Positions 39,078 to 45,795 of a DNA stretch of 64,000 bases are shown here, piece by piece (positions within the stretch are counted from its first letter, which is position 1; the number at the start of each line of letters is the position of its first letter). The translations under genes and the position numbers were made by a program. The notes beneath the pieces were generated by a model. That model did not search any database. It worked only from the letters and a program-made list of their open reading frames with translations, and was not told the origin of the DNA. Origin of the DNA: Melioribacteraceae bacterium (GTDB taxonomy: Bacteria; Bacteroidota; Ignavibacteria; Ignavibacteriales; Melioribacteraceae). Location of the stretch: positions 1,521,511 to 1,585,510 of the forward strand of contig CP129490.1 of the NCBI GenBank assembly GCA_030584085.1. The letters are read 5' to 3'.

Positions 39078-40391
39078 ATGAGAAGGTTATTAACAATATT
39101 ACTCCTTCTCTTAAGCGTATCGATTTTTGGTCAATCTAAAAAAGTCTATTACGGAAACATTGAAGGTGATATCGATCTAGGTTTAGCCCCGTATGTTAAA
39201 CGAATAGTTGATGATGCGAATAAAAATTTTGCCGATGCCGTTATATTTAGAATAAATACTTTCGGCGGTAGAGTTGATGCAGCAACTCAAATCAAAGATG
39301 CTATACTCAACAGTAAAGTTCTTACAATTGCATTTGTTGATAAGCGTGCGATCTCAGCCGGATCATTAATCGCGCTTTCATGCGAAAAAATTGTAATGGT
39401 CCCGGGCGGTGCGATGGGAGCTACGACGGTGGTTGATCAAGCCGGTGCTAAGCAAGCGGAAAAAGTTCAATCTTATATGAGATCCGAAATGCGGGCGACT
39501 GCCGAAAGAAACGGACGACGAACCGATATCGCGGAAGCAATGGTTGATGAACGTGTCGTTATTGAAGGTCTGGTTGATTCAACACAACTTTTGACTTTAA
39601 CTTCGGAAGAAGCTCTAAAATATGGAATGGCAGATACGCTTATTGCAACCTTTGATGAAGTTTTAGCCGCATTTAATCTAGAGAACGCCGAAATTATCGA
39701 AGAAGAAACGAATTGGGGCGAAGACGTAGTTAGATTTTTATCACATCCAATTGTTTCTTCAATTCTAATTATGGTTGCAATGATTGGTCTTTTTACCGAA
39801 ATGAAAACTCCCGGCTGGGGTTTACCCGGCACTGCCGCATTAATTGCTCTCGTCCTTTTCTTCGGCTCGGGTTTAATTCTCGATTTAGTCTCTCTGCTTG
39901 AGATTATAATTTTTATAGTCGGGGTAATTTTACTTCTTATTGAAATTTTCGTGGTTCCGGGATTCGGTATATTTGGCTTACTCGGAATTGTGGCGGTTAT
40001 TGGAAGTTTATTCCTCGGTCTGCTTGCAGATTTTGAAATTGTTACGTGGGAAATGCTTTCGACAGCAATATTACAATTAGCCGTTGCATTTGTAGTTACT
40101 TTTATTGCAGCATATTTTTTATCAAAACTTTTACCCAAGACATCATTTTTTAGCCGATTGATATTACATGATAATATTCTTACTAGATCCGGTTATGCAA
40201 CCGAACCTGAAGCAAAGGAGTTAGTTGGGAAAGATGCTGAAGCGCTTACTGATTTACGTCCTTCCGGTACAGCACTAATTGACAACAAACGCATTGATGT
40301 TGTTACGGAAGGAGTTTTCCTTTCAAGAGGTACCAAGCTTGTTGTTATAAAAGAATCCGGATCAAAAGTTGTTGTAAGAGAAAAGAAATAG
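39078..40391 (+). CDS. NfeD-family membrane serine protease (ClpP-like, long form)
   Basis: A 437-residue protein: signal peptide ending near IFGQ, a ClpP/SppA-like domain with RINTFGGRVDAATQI and KRAISAGSLIALSC (Ser93 the likely nucleophile), four transmembrane segments at about 225-345, and a C-terminal OB-fold NfeD domain (GYATEPEAKELVGKDAEAL). Long NfeD proteases usually partner a stomatin (SPFH) protein that they cleave. No stomatin gene is adjacent here. ATG start 11 bp after speB. Confidence 0.9.
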   Translation: MRRLLTILLLLLSVSIFGQSKKVYYGNIEGDIDLGLAPYVKRIVDDANKNFADAVIFRINTFGGRVDAATQIKDAILNSKVLTIAFVDKRAISAGSLIALSCEKIVMVPGGAMGATTVVDQAGAKQAEKVQSYMRSEMRATAERNGRRTDIAEAMVDERVVIEGLVDSTQLLTLTSEEALKYGMADTLIATFDEVLAAFNLENAEIIEEETNWGEDVVRFLSHPIVSSILIMVAMIGLFTEMKTPGWGLPGTAALIALVLFFGSGLILDLVSLLEIIIFIVGVILLLIEIFVVPGFGIFGLLGIVAVIGSLFLGLLADFEIVTWEMLSTAILQLAVAFVVTFIAAYFLSKLLPKTSFFSRLILHDNILTRSGYATEPEAKELVGKDAEALTDLRPSGTALIDNKRIDVVTEGVFLSRGTKLVVIKESGSKVVVREKK

Positions 40392-40413
40392 GGTTGACGG
40401 TAAGGCCAACCCT
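40390..40413. terminator. weak hairpin between convergent nfeD and the DUF6263 gene
   Basis: The stem AGGGTTG/CAACCCT has a 10-base loop, overlaps the nfeD stop codon and lies in the 30-bp gap between convergent genes. No T-run follows on the plus strand; on the minus strand the T-run comes before the stem. It could be a simple read-through barrier. Confidence 0.3.
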
Positions 40414-40421
40414 GTAAAAAA

Positions 40422-41480
40422 TTAGTTTACTTTCAAAAGCTCAATAAAATTTCTATTAACTGAAAGATCCGATCTTCTAGCCGTTTCAGTTACGCCGCTT
40501 GGATTTTTTGCGGTTACTACTACATTCATTTCGGTTGTTGTAGTTAATTCTGATTTAATAACAATATTTTTCTCTATGTTAAAATAAGTTATTGCGTTAC
40601 CGTCAATTTTTGGTTCTTCAAATTGATATGCCGCTTCACCTTGTTTTATATATCCGTCACCTTCGTAAGTGACATTCAAATCAGTCGTAATCTTTGCAAC
40701 TAAATTATCGTCTTTTTGAACCACATCTCTCAGAGTACTTGTTGCAGTATTTGTTAGATTATAAAGTCCCATTGGCGATTCATAAACTAGATCCCAAGTA
40801 GAATCTATATTAGTTTCTTTTTCAGGTAAATATCTGAATAGTTGTTGAACTAATGGTTTCAATGCTTGTTCTTTCAACTGTGAGTTTATCTGCTCACGTT
40901 CTTCCGGTTTAATTGCGGGGGCTTGTTGAATCTCAAGATATCTATCAACTATTCCGGTGATATTATTTACTTCGACAATTCTTCCTTGATTGTTAATAAC
41001 GACATCAAATGATTGATTTGGAAGTGAGCTGTATTCGGCGAATTTTAAATTGGTCTGCTCGTCATTAATAGCTTTTGAATCAAATGAAACAACCTCACCG
41101 TTATAATTAGCGGAAATTTCAACTGACTCAATTGATATTTTGACACGAGTATTGTTATCTGCTTGACCTAGTGATTCTAAATTAAAAATATAATTTAGTG
41201 TCTGTGAAACTTCATTTGTTATAGTGGAATCGGCAATGATCTTTTGATTAGTTGTGGCGACTGAAGTCAACTTGTAGGTCATTTTCTGACCTTGCGGAAT
41301 TTCATAGTTTAATGCAAAAGCTTCGTTACGATCAATTCCGGAAGCCGCCTCAAATTCACCCGGAGCTTCAATCGAAGACTGACTTTCAGTATTGTCATTG
41401 CCGGATTCATTTTTTTTCTCATCACTTCCGCAGCTTATAAATATCATCAACGAAAGCAATAACACAAATAGTTTTTTCAT
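40422..41480 (-). CDS. lipoprotein of the DUF6263 type
   Basis: A 352-residue protein with a lipoprotein signal (FISC, Cys17), a low-complexity Asn/Glu/Ser linker to about residue 48, then a beta-rich body. NYEIPQGQKMTYKLTS and a run of paired strands match the DUF6263 pattern common in Bacteroidota; function unknown. It starts 10 bp after the NamZ gene stop on the same strand, so the two may be cotranscribed. Its linker suggests a domain held off the membrane. Confidence 0.75.
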   Translation of the reverse strand: MKKLFVLLLSLMIFISCGSDEKKNESGNDNTESQSSIEAPGEFEAASGIDRNEAFALNYEIPQGQKMTYKLTSVATTNQKIIADSTITNEVSQTLNYIFNLESLGQADNNTRVKISIESVEISANYNGEVVSFDSKAINDEQTNLKFAEYSSLPNQSFDVVINNQGRIVEVNNITGIVDRYLEIQQAPAIKPEEREQINSQLKEQALKPLVQQLFRYLPEKETNIDSTWDLVYESPMGLYNLTNTATSTLRDVVQKDDNLVAKITTDLNVTYEGDGYIKQGEAAYQFEEPKIDGNAITYFNIEKNIVIKSELTTTTEMNVVVTAKNPSGVTETARRSDLSVNRNFIELLKVN

Positions 41481-41490
41481 TTCTTTTCCT

Positions 41491-42708
41491 TTAATAAAGT
41501 AAATAGTTTTTTCTAATCTCTTTAAACTCTGCTAAGTCTTTCCCCCAAGAATCTATAATTTCATTAACAGATTTATTGGAATTAATAAAATCTTTTATTT
41601 TAGCATTTCCCCAAAGCAAATCAAAGTGAGAAGTAAACTCAAAATTATCTCCATATAATTGTTGTAATGTTGTCAACAAGGTCAAAGCAGTTTTTAATGG
41701 ATTATAATTTTCTCTACTAACTAATTTTAATTGAATACCTTCGCATATTTCGTTTTTATATTTAGGATTAGAAGCTTTATCCTCAATTGATACCGGAACA
41801 AATTCAATTGCTCTCAAAATAAAATCACCACTTAATATTGGAGTAAGTTCATCTTTCAACTTCTTGCTGTCTATAAACGGGGCACCAAAAATATGAAAAG
41901 GTGTATATGTTCCTCTTCCTTCAGAGATATTTGTTCCTTCAAAAAATACCGTAATAGGGTAGAGGAGAACGGATTCAAAATTTACAATATTCGGTGATGG
42001 ATCCCGCCAAGGCAATTCCAATTCATCCCAGAATTTTGACCTATCCCAATTTTGCATTTTTATAACTTTTAGATCAGCTTTTGGAGCTATTCTATCATTA
42101 AAAAATAAGGCAAGCTCACCGATCGTCATTCCATGTATAACCGGAATATTGTCAACACCGACAAATGACTTAAAATTATCTTCGAGAATCGGACCGTCAA
42201 CTAAAATTCCGCCAAGAGGATTCGGTCTGTCTAATACGATAATATCTACATTGTTTTCACCACATGCTTCTAAAAGATATAGCAATGAAGATATGTAAGT
42301 ATAAAATCTCGTTCCGATATCTTGAATATCGAAAATAATTATGTCAAGATCAGCCATCATTTGCGGTGTCGGTTTTTTGTTTGAACCGTAAAGGGAGTGA
42401 ATTTTTATTTGTTCAATTGTGGAATTTGGGATGACGACCCCCGCACCTTTTTGTAATTCGAAGCCGTGTTCTAATGCAAAAACACTTTGTATGGTTATGC
42501 CATCCAAATCTAATAATGCATCTATAAATCGCTCTCCGCTTGATAACGTTGCAGCAGTGTTTGTAACCACACCGATTCTTTTTCCTTTAATCAGGTCTAA
42601 GTGCTCGGTGAGCAGAACATCGTTACCAAGTTTAATCTTCTGTGCGTATAAAAAAGAAAATGCGGCAAAAAATATTGCCGCATAATTCAAAAATCTGTTA
42701 TTGATCAA
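41491..42708 (-). CDS. NamZ-like exo-beta-N-acetylmuramidase (DUF1343)
   Basis: A 405-residue exported enzyme of the DUF1343 family, whose characterised member NamZ releases terminal N-acetylmuramic acid from peptidoglycan fragments. GKRIGVVTNTAATLSSG, FALEHGFELQKGAG, FDIQDIGTRFYTY and DRPNPLGG are hallmarks. The signal peptide ends near LYAQ. The start is TTG 42708 and lacks a ribosome site. The codons for the signal peptide form a terminator-shaped hairpin (42650-42683), so the start or its regulation is open. It follows ndk on the same strand. Confidence 0.85.
   Translation of the reverse strand: MINNRFLNYAAIFFAAFSFLYAQKIKLGNDVLLTEHLDLIKGKRIGVVTNTAATLSSGERFIDALLDLDGITIQSVFALEHGFELQKGAGVVIPNSTIEQIKIHSLYGSNKKPTPQMMADLDIIIFDIQDIGTRFYTYISSLLYLLEACGENNVDIIVLDRPNPLGGILVDGPILEDNFKSFVGVDNIPVIHGMTIGELALFFNDRIAPKADLKVIKMQNWDRSKFWDELELPWRDPSPNIVNFESVLLYPITVFFEGTNISEGRGTYTPFHIFGAPFIDSKKLKDELTPILSGDFILRAIEFVPVSIEDKASNPKYKNEICEGIQLKLVSRENYNPLKTALTLLTTLQQLYGDNFEFTSHFDLLWGNAKIKDFINSNKSVNEIIDSWGKDLAEFKEIRKNYLLY
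42650..42683 (-). terminator. terminator-shaped hairpin inside the namZ signal-peptide codons
   Basis: On the minus strand, ATGCGGCAA-TATTTT-TTGCCGCAT (9-bp perfect stem, 6-base loop) runs into TTTCTTTTTTAT. It lies 45 bp after the ndk stop, where an ndk terminator would be expected, but within codons about 9-20 of the NamZ-like gene. It may end most ndk transcripts and limit expression of namZ. Confidence 0.6.
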
Positions 42709-42727
42709 AGTAAAAATCCGAATAAAA

Positions 42728-43159
42728 TTAAAATCCGTTTATATCTAACAATTCTTTTCTTGTGAAGAAATGAGAAATTTCTTTAGCTGCGTTTTCATCG
42801 GAATCCGATCCGTGAACTATATTTTGTTCGATGTTTTCAGCATACATTTTTCTGATTGTTCCTTCAGCAGCTTTTGATGGATCGGTTGCACCGATTAATT
42901 TTCTGAATTCCTCAACTGCATTTTCTTTTTCCAATGCGATCGGTACACATGGTCCGCTTGTCATATACTCCAACAAATCATTATAGAAAGGTCTTTCTTT
43001 ATGAATTTCATAGAACCCGCCGGCTGAATCTTTTGTCAATCTAACCATCTTCATTCCTAATACTTTGAATCCGGCATCTTGTATGTGCGATACAACTTTT
43101 CCGATCAGATTTTTTCTTACACAGTCAGGTTTCAATATTGCTAATGTTCTGTTACTCAC
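42728..43159 (-). CDS. ndk: nucleoside diphosphate kinase
   Basis: A 143-residue enzyme that balances NTP and dNTP pools by transferring phosphate through His116 ([12 protein letters not shown]). [29 protein letters not shown] and [12 protein letters not shown] are family signatures, and the length is standard. It reads toward the NamZ-like gene with a terminator-like hairpin between. The gap upstream of it carries an inverted-repeat element at 43191-43290. Confidence 0.97.
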
Positions 43160-43190
43160 TATCTAACTCCTTTGGTTTATATCTATTTTG

Positions 43191-43290
43191 TCATTCTGAG
43201 GAGTGATGATTTTTATCGCGACGAAGAATCTCACTTTATCTTTTATAAAATTCTCGCGACATTCATTCCGCTATGTTTAACTCAGAATGA
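43191..43290. repeat. 100-bp element with perfect 10-bp terminal inverted repeats
   Basis: TCATTCTGAG at the left end matches CTCAGAATGA at the right end exactly. Inside are GCGACGAAGAATCTC and TCTCGCGACATTC, which carry smaller repeats (GCGAC). The size and ends look like a small MITE or REP-type sequence. No target-site duplication is visible. It fills most of the ndk-sucD gap. Confidence 0.55.
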
Positions 43291-43306
43291 TTATTAATTA
43301 ACTTAT

Positions 43307-44233
43307 TTATTTCTTCTTATTTTTCTTTTTTGCTTTGCTCTTTTTTTTCTTATCACCGTAAAATTCATCAAGTGCTTCTTTCATTTTAATACCGATTTCA
43401 GCCGGACTTAACGCAACTTTTATTCCTGCTTTTTTCATCGCTTTGATTTTTTCATCAGCTGTTCCTTTACCACCGGAAATAATTGCACCGGCATGACCCA
43501 TTCTTCTTCCGGGAGGTGCCGTTCTACCGGCAATAAATCCAACTACAGGCTTGTTAACATATTTTTTAACATAAGCTGCTGCTTCTTCTTCTGCACTTCC
43601 GCCGATTTCACCGATCATTACTATTCCTTCGGTATTCGGATCTTCATTGAACAATTTTATAATATCTATAAATTGAGAACCGATAATCGGATCACCACCA
43701 ATACCAACGCAAGTAGATTGTCCGATTTTCAAATCACTTAATTGTTTTACTGCTTCGTAAGTTAATGTTCCGCTTCTTGAAACAACACCGACTTTACCTT
43801 TACGATGAATGAATCCCGGCATAATTCCGATCTTTGCTTTTCCGGGTGATATTATACCCGGACAGTTCGGACCAATTAATCGCACATCCATATTTTTAAT
43901 TGAATTATAAACCTTAGTCATATCTTTTACTGGTATGCCTTCGGTGATACATATTATTAATTTTACACCGGCATTTGCTGCTTCTAAAATTGCATCGGCT
44001 GCAAAACCGGGTGGCACAAAGATAACCGATGCTTCAGCTTTCTTTTTTTCAACCGCATCCGCAACAGTATTAAATACTGGAATACCTTGAAATTTGGTTC
44101 CGCCTTTACCGGGAGTTACACCGGCAACAACATTTGTCCCGTATTCAACCATTTGACCGGTATGAAAAGAACCTTCACCACCGGTGATTCCTTGAACTAC
44201 AACTCTTGTTTTTTTGTCGAGTAGAATACTCAT
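43307..44233 (-). CDS. sucD: succinate-CoA ligase alpha subunit
   Basis: A 308-residue subunit with the CoA-binding Rossmann start [15 protein letters not shown] and the phosphohistidine His247 (RRMGHAGAI). With SucC it makes ATP or GTP and succinate from succinyl-CoA in the TCA cycle. sucC is not next to it. The C-terminus extends the usual ~290 residues with a Lys-rich tail ([14 protein letters not shown]), encoded by A-rich DNA. It is transcribed after the gatA operon terminator, from its own promoter. Confidence 0.95.
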
Positions 44234-44335
44234 ATTATTTCCCGTTTATTTTTTACTAAAATTAGAATTATTAACTAAGCAAGTTATAAAAAATTGATAA
44301 ATTTTACTTCGCTATTTGAGTTCGTCAGGAATCTT

Positions 44336-44368
44336 AAAAGCCCAACTTTTTCAAAAAGTTGGGCTTTT
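44336..44368 (-). terminator. intrinsic terminator of the psd-gatA operon
   Basis: A near-perfect stem AAAAGCCCAACTTTTT/AAAAAGTTGGGCTTTT with a one-base loop centre; the stem ends supply the T-run on either strand. It lies just downstream of the gatA stop and before sucD. Confidence 0.85.
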
Positions 44369-44388
44369 ACCTTTTACTTTGGTAAACT

Positions 44389-45795
44389 TCATTTTGTCAT
44401 TTGCTCTGCAATTTTTAGTAGTTTTTCTTCCATAAAATGCGGCGCCATAAATTGTATTCCTACCGGAAAAGAATCCTTCTCTTTCCATGGAATACTGATT
44501 GCCGGAATACCGGTTAAATTTGCAGATACAGTATAAATATCACCTAGATACATTTGAAGCGGATTATTAACAGTTTCACCAATTTTGTATGCTGGTGTTG
44601 GCGCTGTTGGAGATATTATCAAATCAACTTTTTCAAATGCTCTATCGAAATCTTCTTTTATCAATCGCCGGACTTTTTGAGCTTTTGTATAATATGCATC
44701 ATAATATCCCGATGAAAGCACATAAGTCCCCAACATAATTCTTCGTTTTACTTCTTTCCCGAATCCTTCTGTTTTTGTCTTATCATACAATTCGTCGAAT
44801 GATTTGATTTCTTTACTTCTTAATCCATAACGCACACCGTCAAATCTTGCCAAATTTGCCGATGCTTCGGCAGTGACTAAAATATAATATGTGGCAATCG
44901 TAAATTCTGAGTGGGGAAGTGAAATATCAACTATTTCATGCCCGAGATTTTTGAGCTTGTCAATTGATGAATCAATTGCAGCTATAACATTTTCGTCAAG
45001 TCCTTCGACAAAATATTCCTTTGGAACACCAATTTTTAGATATCCATCTAAAGAATTTTTTTCAACACTGTAAGAATCAATGTCAACGGATGTAGAATCA
45101 AGATCATCTTTCCCGGTTAAAACATCGAGCAATAATTCTAAGTCTTGCTGATTCTTTGTAATCGGCCCAACACAATCAAATGATGATCCATATGCTGTCA
45201 GTCCGTAACGTGAAACTCTGCCGTATGTCGGTTTCAAACCAAAAGTTCCGGTAAAAGCCGCCGGTTGTCTAATTGAACCGCCGGTATCCGTCCCGATTGC
45301 AGCATCGCAAAGATTTGCAGCGACTGCTGCAGCCGAACCACCGCTTGAACCACCCGGGACTCTAGTTCTATCAAGTGGATTTAACACAGCTCCGAATGCA
45401 GAATTTTCGTTGGTAGAACCCATTGCGAATTCATCACAATTTGTTTTCCCGATTATTATTGCATCCTCATCGATCAATTTTTGAATTGAAGTGGCTGTGT
45501 AAACTGATTCAAATCCGTTCAATATTTTTGATGAGCAGGTGAGAGGTTTGTCTTTAATTGCTAGTAAATCTTTAACCGCTATTACCATCCCGGCAAGTTT
45601 GCCGTGATTCCCGCTTAATATTTTCTGCTCGATTAACTTTGCATTCTCAATCGCATCTTCAAATACAAAGTTAAAGGCGTTTATATCCTTTTGATTAGAA
45701 ATATGATTCAAAAAAAACTCAACATTCTCCACGAGAGATAGTTGAGCTTTTCGAATTAATTCAAGTTTTTCAGTGTGATTTTTATACAACAGCAC
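44389..45795 (-). CDS. gatA: Asp-tRNA(Asn)/Glu-tRNA(Gln) amidotransferase subunit A
   Basis: A 468-residue amidase-family subunit that frees ammonia from glutamine for transamidation of Glu-tRNA(Gln) and Asp-tRNA(Asn). The catalytic Lys75, Ser150 (PGGSSGGSAAAVAA) and Ser174 (TDTGGSIRQPA) match the GatA triad with a constant offset of 4 from the S. aureus numbering. gatB and gatC are not in the window. It is the last gene of the operon, 7 bp after tatA, and ends at a terminator. Confidence 0.95.
   Translation of the reverse strand: MLLYKNHTEKLELIRKAQLSLVENVEFFLNHISNQKDINAFNFVFEDAIENAKLIEQKILSGNHGKLAGMVIAVKDLLAIKDKPLTCSSKILNGFESVYTATSIQKLIDEDAIIIGKTNCDEFAMGSTNENSAFGAVLNPLDRTRVPGGSSGGSAAAVAANLCDAAIGTDTGGSIRQPAAFTGTFGLKPTYGRVSRYGLTAYGSSFDCVGPITKNQQDLELLLDVLTGKDDLDSTSVDIDSYSVEKNSLDGYLKIGVPKEYFVEGLDENVIAAIDSSIDKLKNLGHEIVDISLPHSEFTIATYYILVTAEASANLARFDGVRYGLRSKEIKSFDELYDKTKTEGFGKEVKRRIMLGTYVLSSGYYDAYYTKAQKVRRLIKEDFDRAFEKVDLIISPTAPTPAYKIGETVNNPLQMYLGDIYTVSANLTGIPAISIPWKEKDSFPVGIQFMAPHFMEEKLLKIAEQMTK

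Follow-up and report, generated by a model that had tools for sequence, protein, structure and literature searches.

The Genes around namZ

The window, that is, the whole stretch of 64,000 nucleotides of DNA that was analysed, belongs to a genome of 3.74 Mb assembled as a single contig, which also encodes Rho. On its minus strand, four genes follow one another: sucD, for the alpha subunit of succinate-CoA ligase (43307–44233); ndk, for nucleoside diphosphate kinase (42728–43159); namZ, for an exo-beta-N-acetylmuramidase family protein, with a TTG start codon (41491–42708); and, directly 3' of namZ, a gene for a DUF6263 protein (40422–41480), judged from the look of its N-terminus to be a lipoprotein. 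The assignment of namZ, read as an open reading frame, is based on matches of its product to PF07075 (2.3e-73) and PF20732 (7.4e-47); no NCBIfam match to the product was found. The stop codon of ndk and the start codon of namZ are separated by 19 nt, and ndk is the gene that the putative terminator described below would end. This row of genes, with sucD as an upstream member, is conserved; indeed, among the loci of the best 30 matches, searched with flanks of 1.5 kb, ndk adjoins namZ in 29 of 30, sucD is present in 27 of 30, and the DUF6263 gene in 24 of 30. In 12 distant loci taken from a wider contig scan, ndk was not found within the stored flanks.

Two further features lie upstream of ndk. 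The interval from sucD to ndk includes a 51-nt piece (43189–43239) with two more copies in the genome, at 84%, which looks like a small dispersed element; these copies are placed near both contig ends (G000 C1, 2508–2558 and 3733924–3733974), and, since they match with equal score, span, and strand, the ends of the single contig may overlap. Between sucD and an ORF at 44389–45795, which from its look we take to be gatA, there is an inverted repeat (44335–44369) whose 17-bp arms match perfectly around a loop of 1 nt; it is terminator-like on the plus strand and is not among the minus-strand candidates.

A Terminator-Shaped Hairpin in the First Codons of namZ

The first codons of namZ contain a terminator-shaped hairpin (42660–42683, minus strand), in which positions 42683–42675 pair with positions 42668–42660 to form a 9-bp stem closed by a 6-nt loop. 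Its 5' arm is ATGCGGCAA, its loop TATTTT, and its 3' arm TTGCCGCAT; the stem is perfect, with five G-C pairs, and, as in intrinsic terminators, this G+C-rich stem is followed by a U tract, TTTCTTTTTTAT (42648–42659, minus strand), with seven T in eight positions. The hairpin alone has a folding energy of -14.0 kcal/mol, and its 101-nt context gives a z-score of -4.35, a fold that none of 200 dinucleotide shuffles equalled. The stem lies on the sense strand, starting 44 nt past the ndk stop codon and 25 nt into namZ; the former distance is long, falling in the upper 6% of those observed in this genome, where the distance from stop to stem has a median of 22 nt, quartiles of 10 and 27 nt, and reaches at least 40 nt in 6% of cases.

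The original prediction had claimed an intrinsic terminator past ndk whose bases also encode the N-terminus of NamZ. As to shape, the first part is borne out by the stem, the tract, and their position, from which termination is suggested; the second holds as well, the stem falling in frame within namZ codons 9–17 (YAAIFFAAF) and the U tract within codons 17–21 (FSFLY). Both are contained in the putative signal-peptide codons (MINNRFLNYAAIFFAAFSFLYAQ; 42640–42708, minus strand), the signal peptide being called from the look of the N-terminus, the reading frame, and the aligned N-termini of sister genomes. The range first proposed, 42650–42708, is correct in that it includes the hairpin proper (42660–42683) and too wide in that it also covers the start codon. 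A later start of namZ, which would leave the hairpin upstream of the gene, was considered and rejected; within 90 nt of the start, the frame offers no further ATG, GTG, or TTG except a TTG at 42690, which precedes the stem by 7 nt.

Similar Hairpins across the Genome

Terminator-like hairpins were scanned for with thresholds of at least seven stem pairs, at least four G-C pairs, and six T in eight positions, in a sample of 1.264 Mb (34% of the genome) that combines the window with 60 segments of 20 kb each and contains 958 called genes. Genes were called with a simple home-made caller, which also served for codon usage, the density scans, and the Shine-Dalgarno counts and which, in the codon-usage count, began namZ at the inner TTG. 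The sample holds 133 hairpins; the 120 nt past stop codons account for 80 of them, a density of 145 per 100 kb, whereas 33 lie in the remaining non-genic DNA (8.2 per 100 kb), 12 on the antisense strand of genes (1.16 per 100 kb), and 6 in the sense orientation in genes beyond their first 100 nt (0.64 per 100 kb). The first 100 nt of genes contain two (2.1 per 100 kb), with 0.6–1.1 expected from the in-gene densities over about 950 starts; in one of the two (L098), the called start falls within the hairpin itself and is probably wrong. The density just past stop codons is thus more than 100 times that of gene bodies, and strong terminator-like hairpins mostly avoid coding sequence, 8 of the 133 being in the sense orientation within genes. 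A smaller pass over 464 kb gave 48 hairpins (30 past stops, 10 otherwise non-genic, 5 antisense, 3 in genes), and the namZ hairpin was the sole gene-start case among the three in genes. Because the class concentrates after stop codons, a hairpin of such form that follows a stop codon very probably represents a terminator; the location statistics do not by themselves prove the case of namZ, since 0.6–1.1 chance cases are expected in the gene starts.

Conservation in the Genus

The genus sample consists of four genomes, in three of which the locus is present, namely the window genome and its sisters G001 and G002; the fourth, G058 (same species, 80% complete), gave no match to the locus. Compared with the window, the sisters are 63% identical in NamZ and 92–94% identical in NDK, and the aligned NamZ N-termini read MINNRFLNYAAIFFAAFSFLYAQ in the window, MTKKLLIYAAVISAAFLFVYAQ in G002, and MTKKLLIYAAVISAAFLFVYSQ in G001. 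At the same namZ codons, both G002 and G001 carry ATGCGGCTG TAATTT CAGCCGCAT followed by TTTTATTTG; their T tract (TTTTATTTGTTT) still has seven T in eight positions, though two of the five residues encoded by the tract differ. Seven of the nine stem pairs are unchanged, two are changed on both sides, and none is broken; the four altered bases fall in the third position of an Ala codon and in codons where Ile is replaced by Val and Phe by Ser. In pairs 2, 5, and 8 of the stem, each of the two bases occupies a third codon position. Over the hairpin and the tract, 27 of 36 alignment columns are identical; the ndk-namZ spacer has diverged with gaps. The Ala codons of the hairpin include GCG and GCC, the two rarer Ala codons here (12% and 15%), which are kept in all three genomes; over the whole gene, the third bases of shared Ala codons are the same in 6 of 16 (G002) and 9 of 15 (G001), and within the hairpin in three of four, the fourth having changed along with its partner.

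Conservation of the pairing at synonymous and third codon positions among relatives, which had been put forward as a check, therefore speaks in favour of the hairpin, and the paired changes place it above chance within the genus. G001 and G002 are identical here, so that the two distinct hairpin sequences provide a single evolutionary contrast; column shuffles, in which the observed pairing score was reached in 120 of 500, cannot resolve this single contrast.

In G002, another terminator-shaped hairpin occurs in the middle of namZ (L036, 4549–4588; 16 pairs including G-U, seven T in eight), and it is not among the candidates for the window or G001; terminator shapes can thus arise in namZ without being kept. 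A further match in G002 (L034, C10) was set aside, as it is a resemblance lying in the start of another membrane protein in which a matching 5' arm was not seen by eye.

A Putative Leaky Terminator within an Operon

The reading that we favour, and hold to be probable with moderate confidence, is that the hairpin is a leaky intrinsic (Rho-independent) terminator within an operon sucD-ndk-namZ-DUF6263, placed inside namZ codons 9–17. For most polymerases leaving ndk, transcription would end at the U tract, while a read-through minority would yield a message for namZ and the DUF6263 gene, ending at the hairpin 3' of the latter; the outcome would be a step-down from the genes of central metabolism to the cell-wall gene namZ. 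Termination in the cell, its leakiness, and the shared transcript are what we infer from the sequence. As in intra-operon terminators, the downstream genes lie on the same strand and are followed by a later terminator-like hairpin; this second terminator-shaped hairpin (40390–40413, minus strand), 8 nt past the DUF6263 gene, is the probable end of the longer transcript. Since each of the three genus genomes has a hairpin of this kind past the DUF6263 gene, that gene and namZ are probably transcribed together once the first hairpin has been passed. Since the pairing of that first hairpin is kept in the sisters despite changes of both bases and amino acids, expression of namZ is probably lowered by it.

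A sigma-70-like scan of the minus strand from 43307 to 42690 found no promoter-like site, a weak test given that 14 sites were found in the region and 14.6 in shuffles. The Bacteroidota-type promoter motif TTG/TAnnTTTG had no match in 42500–43500, again a weak test.

With regard to the ribosomes that would travel along this transcript, a close parallel in geometry is provided by the tR2 terminator construct W48 of Li et al. (PMC4824070), which lies about 48 bp past a stop codon and 30 bp past an AUG, to be compared with 44 and 25 nt at namZ; it differs in being engineered on an E. coli plasmid, whereas the namZ hairpin is natural and kept in the genus. The same paper reports that, in E. coli, termination is full when the distance from stop to stem exceeds about 27–30 nt. 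Because the two geometries nearly match, ribosomes on ndk should not disturb the namZ hairpin, and those on namZ should disturb it little, if matters are as in E. coli. On the whole, the namZ locus is a genuine case of a conserved and uncommon overlap between a probable terminator and coding sequence, in which the parts are ordinary and the placement is unusual.

Alternative Explanations

It had originally been proposed that the overlap may work as an attenuation-like switch. On this reading, a ribosome promptly initiating on namZ would cover the 5' arm and let the polymerase pass, and in the absence of initiation transcription would stop, so that production of namZ mRNA would require that namZ be translatable. 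Several features speak for such a translation-controlled attenuator. Because the stem starts 25 nt into the coding frame, a ribosome translating namZ has to melt it; the 19 nt between the ndk stop and the namZ start make re-initiation conceivable; and, when the 3' arm is omitted from the fold, bases in the core of the 5' arm form upstream pairs, the probability being 0.8–1.0 in each genome. Precedents are also available: translation into the terminator of the Streptococcus gallolyticus pil1 leader relieves it (PMC3894217), pyrBI is cited as an attenuator in PMC4824070, and a coupled ribosome is reported to prevent the formation of intrinsic terminator hairpins (PMC5021804). Against the switch, PMC4824070 gives a cost of only about 10% of efficiency for translation of tR2 placed 30 bp past an AUG in E. 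coli. Moreover, when 160 nt upstream were folded, the upstream partner of the 5' arm differed among all three genomes, and an antiterminator shared in the genus was accordingly rejected as far as tested. Nor was a separate leader peptide found upstream, the frame that runs over the stem being namZ itself, only 19 nt after ndk; and no Rfam family reached the gathering score in the window.

The signals for initiation on namZ bear on the same question. The original prediction had pointed to the TTG start and the lack of a ribosome-binding site; both are indeed present in the window, yet the sisters have ATG at a neighbouring codon, and the lack of a site is common in this genome. In particular, a Shine-Dalgarno-like 4-mer precedes 318 of 826 sampled genes, the corresponding count for a control position being 46 of 826, and none is found before namZ in any of the three genus genomes (the sisters being inspected by eye). 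The absence of the site in the window weighs against the switch, and weak initiation on namZ is plausible, though most sampled genes also do without a site. Given the loss of about 10% reported for tR2 and the lack of an antiterminator common to the three genomes, the switch is less likely than the leaky terminator; as a claim it is not supported, and we regard it as unlikely. Slightly more doubtful is the stronger version, according to which the signal-peptide codons are also a conserved terminator whose pairing limits the residues open to the signal peptide, the speed of namZ translation would govern namZ transcription, and a full namZ message would be made only if its first codons are being read.

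By a further alternative, an Ala- and Phe-rich signal peptide produced the hairpin by coincidence and descent then preserved it. When the window protein was kept fixed and its codons were resampled according to their usage in the genome, 1.0% of 20,000 redraws yielded a 9-bp stem with five G-C pairs, and the same procedure with the G002 protein gave 1.9% of 20,000; the folding energy was matched in 1.3% (window) and 1.0% (G002) of 3,000 synonymous redraws. With two Ala-Ala pairs, the Phe-rich peptide therefore raises the odds of such a hairpin, which on this account would arise in about 1–2% of redraws per signal peptide; if the codons that G002 shares with the window are fixed along with the G002 protein, 20% of redraws give a 9-bp stem. 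The roughly 950 gene starts should moreover include about one background case, one of 37 other loci has a comparable hairpin whose T tract is poor (L052, see below), and G002 carries the unrelated terminator shape in the middle of namZ. What tells against coincidence is that both partners have changed together at two pairs, that the hairpin block keeps its pairing next to a spacer that has diverged with gaps, and that neutral retention of the nine pairs is expected in only about 0.1% of cases. The last figure comes from a model of neutral codon evolution whose parameters were taken from the remaining 382 codons of namZ, with a fitted divergence at the edge of the grid (t = 4), in which the 12 window codons were evolved in 100,000 runs: all nine pairs were kept in 0.14%, in 0.04% with at least five G-C pairs, and nine pairs together with at least two double changes were obtained in 0.064%. 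At the fitted setting, the simulated peptide identity was 0.54, against 7 of 12 observed; a higher omega gave at most 0.003%, but with a far lower peptide identity. Chance followed by descent is, on this evidence, improbable.

Least probable of all is a role of the hairpin on the mRNA, where it would protect or mark a processed ndk 3' end or slow ribosomes on the signal peptide for export, a role with which the pairing conserved in the genus would agree and for which the U-rich tail might partly be expected from a hydrophobic peptide in a genome of 35% G+C; against it, hairpin and T tract together cluster past stop codons (80 of 133, versus 8 of 133 in the sense orientation of genes), and the tract stays at seven T in eight in the sisters despite the change of two of its five residues.

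Comparison with Known Systems and Significance

Partial terminators within operons, which determine the expression ratios of the operon genes, resemble the putative leaky terminator of namZ in consisting of a hairpin and a U tract between co-directional genes, with a later terminator-like hairpin at the operon end; they are described as sited between genes in PMC4824070, whereas that of namZ is inside the codons of the next gene. Because of this placement, terminated RNAs would carry the start codon and no stop codon in the namZ frame, and ndk messages ending in this way are predicted. RNA 3' ends internal to ORFs have been mapped in E. coli by Adams et al. (PMC7815308), at least one of which (aceK int) has an intrinsic terminator score; those ends were mapped by RNA sequencing, whereas the namZ case is drawn from the sequence and would serve the upstream gene. 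In S. gallolyticus pil1, as at namZ, a coding frame runs into the terminator stem; according to PMC3894217, control there is exerted by a separate leader peptide with variable repeats, whereas the namZ stem is covered by the structural gene itself. Among the open-licence matches listed, no title or abstract describes a terminator at the namZ locus or in signal-peptide codons.

A natural and conserved overlap of this kind would show that a regulatory RNA signal can be accommodated in a signal peptide, tolerant as the latter is in its residues, and the overlap would offer a compact means of setting the ratio of two neighbouring genes.

The Locus outside the Genus

Of the loci available for comparison (L001–L077), for which two of the searches gave at most the best 30 matches each, 73 were taken, L031–L034 being left out, and these comprise 16 without ndk in the stored flank, 17 repeats, and 40 distinct ndk-namZ pairs, 3 from the genus and 37 from outside it. 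Outside the genus, a looser threshold was applied (six pairs, three G-C pairs, five T in eight positions). A terminator-like hairpin was found in the namZ start in 1 of the 37 pairs (L052, with a weak T tract) and between ndk and namZ in 5 (L014, L025, L057, L059, and L063); in L057, L059, and L063, the gap exceeds 500 nt and may hold a gene. Among the pairs examined, the genus alone has the strong form in the namZ start.

The hairpin of L052 (genome G087) is a different one, with a 9-bp stem (GTGCTGGTT/AGCCAGCAC) in the namZ signal-peptide codons, 29 nt past the ndk stop and at almost the same position in namZ as in the window. It is a possible second, independent case; since its T tract is poor and 1–2% of peptide redraws give such a stem, it is left here as a possible coincidence.

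In 20 of the 37 pairs (L005, L008, L009, L011, L018, L020–L024, L026–L029, L057–L060, L063, and L073), the gap between ndk and namZ measures about 480–630 nt and may hold another gene. In L059, this gap contains three near-identical CCAACTTTTT...GAGTTGG hairpins, about 100–130 nt apart, which perhaps form a tandem repeat array.
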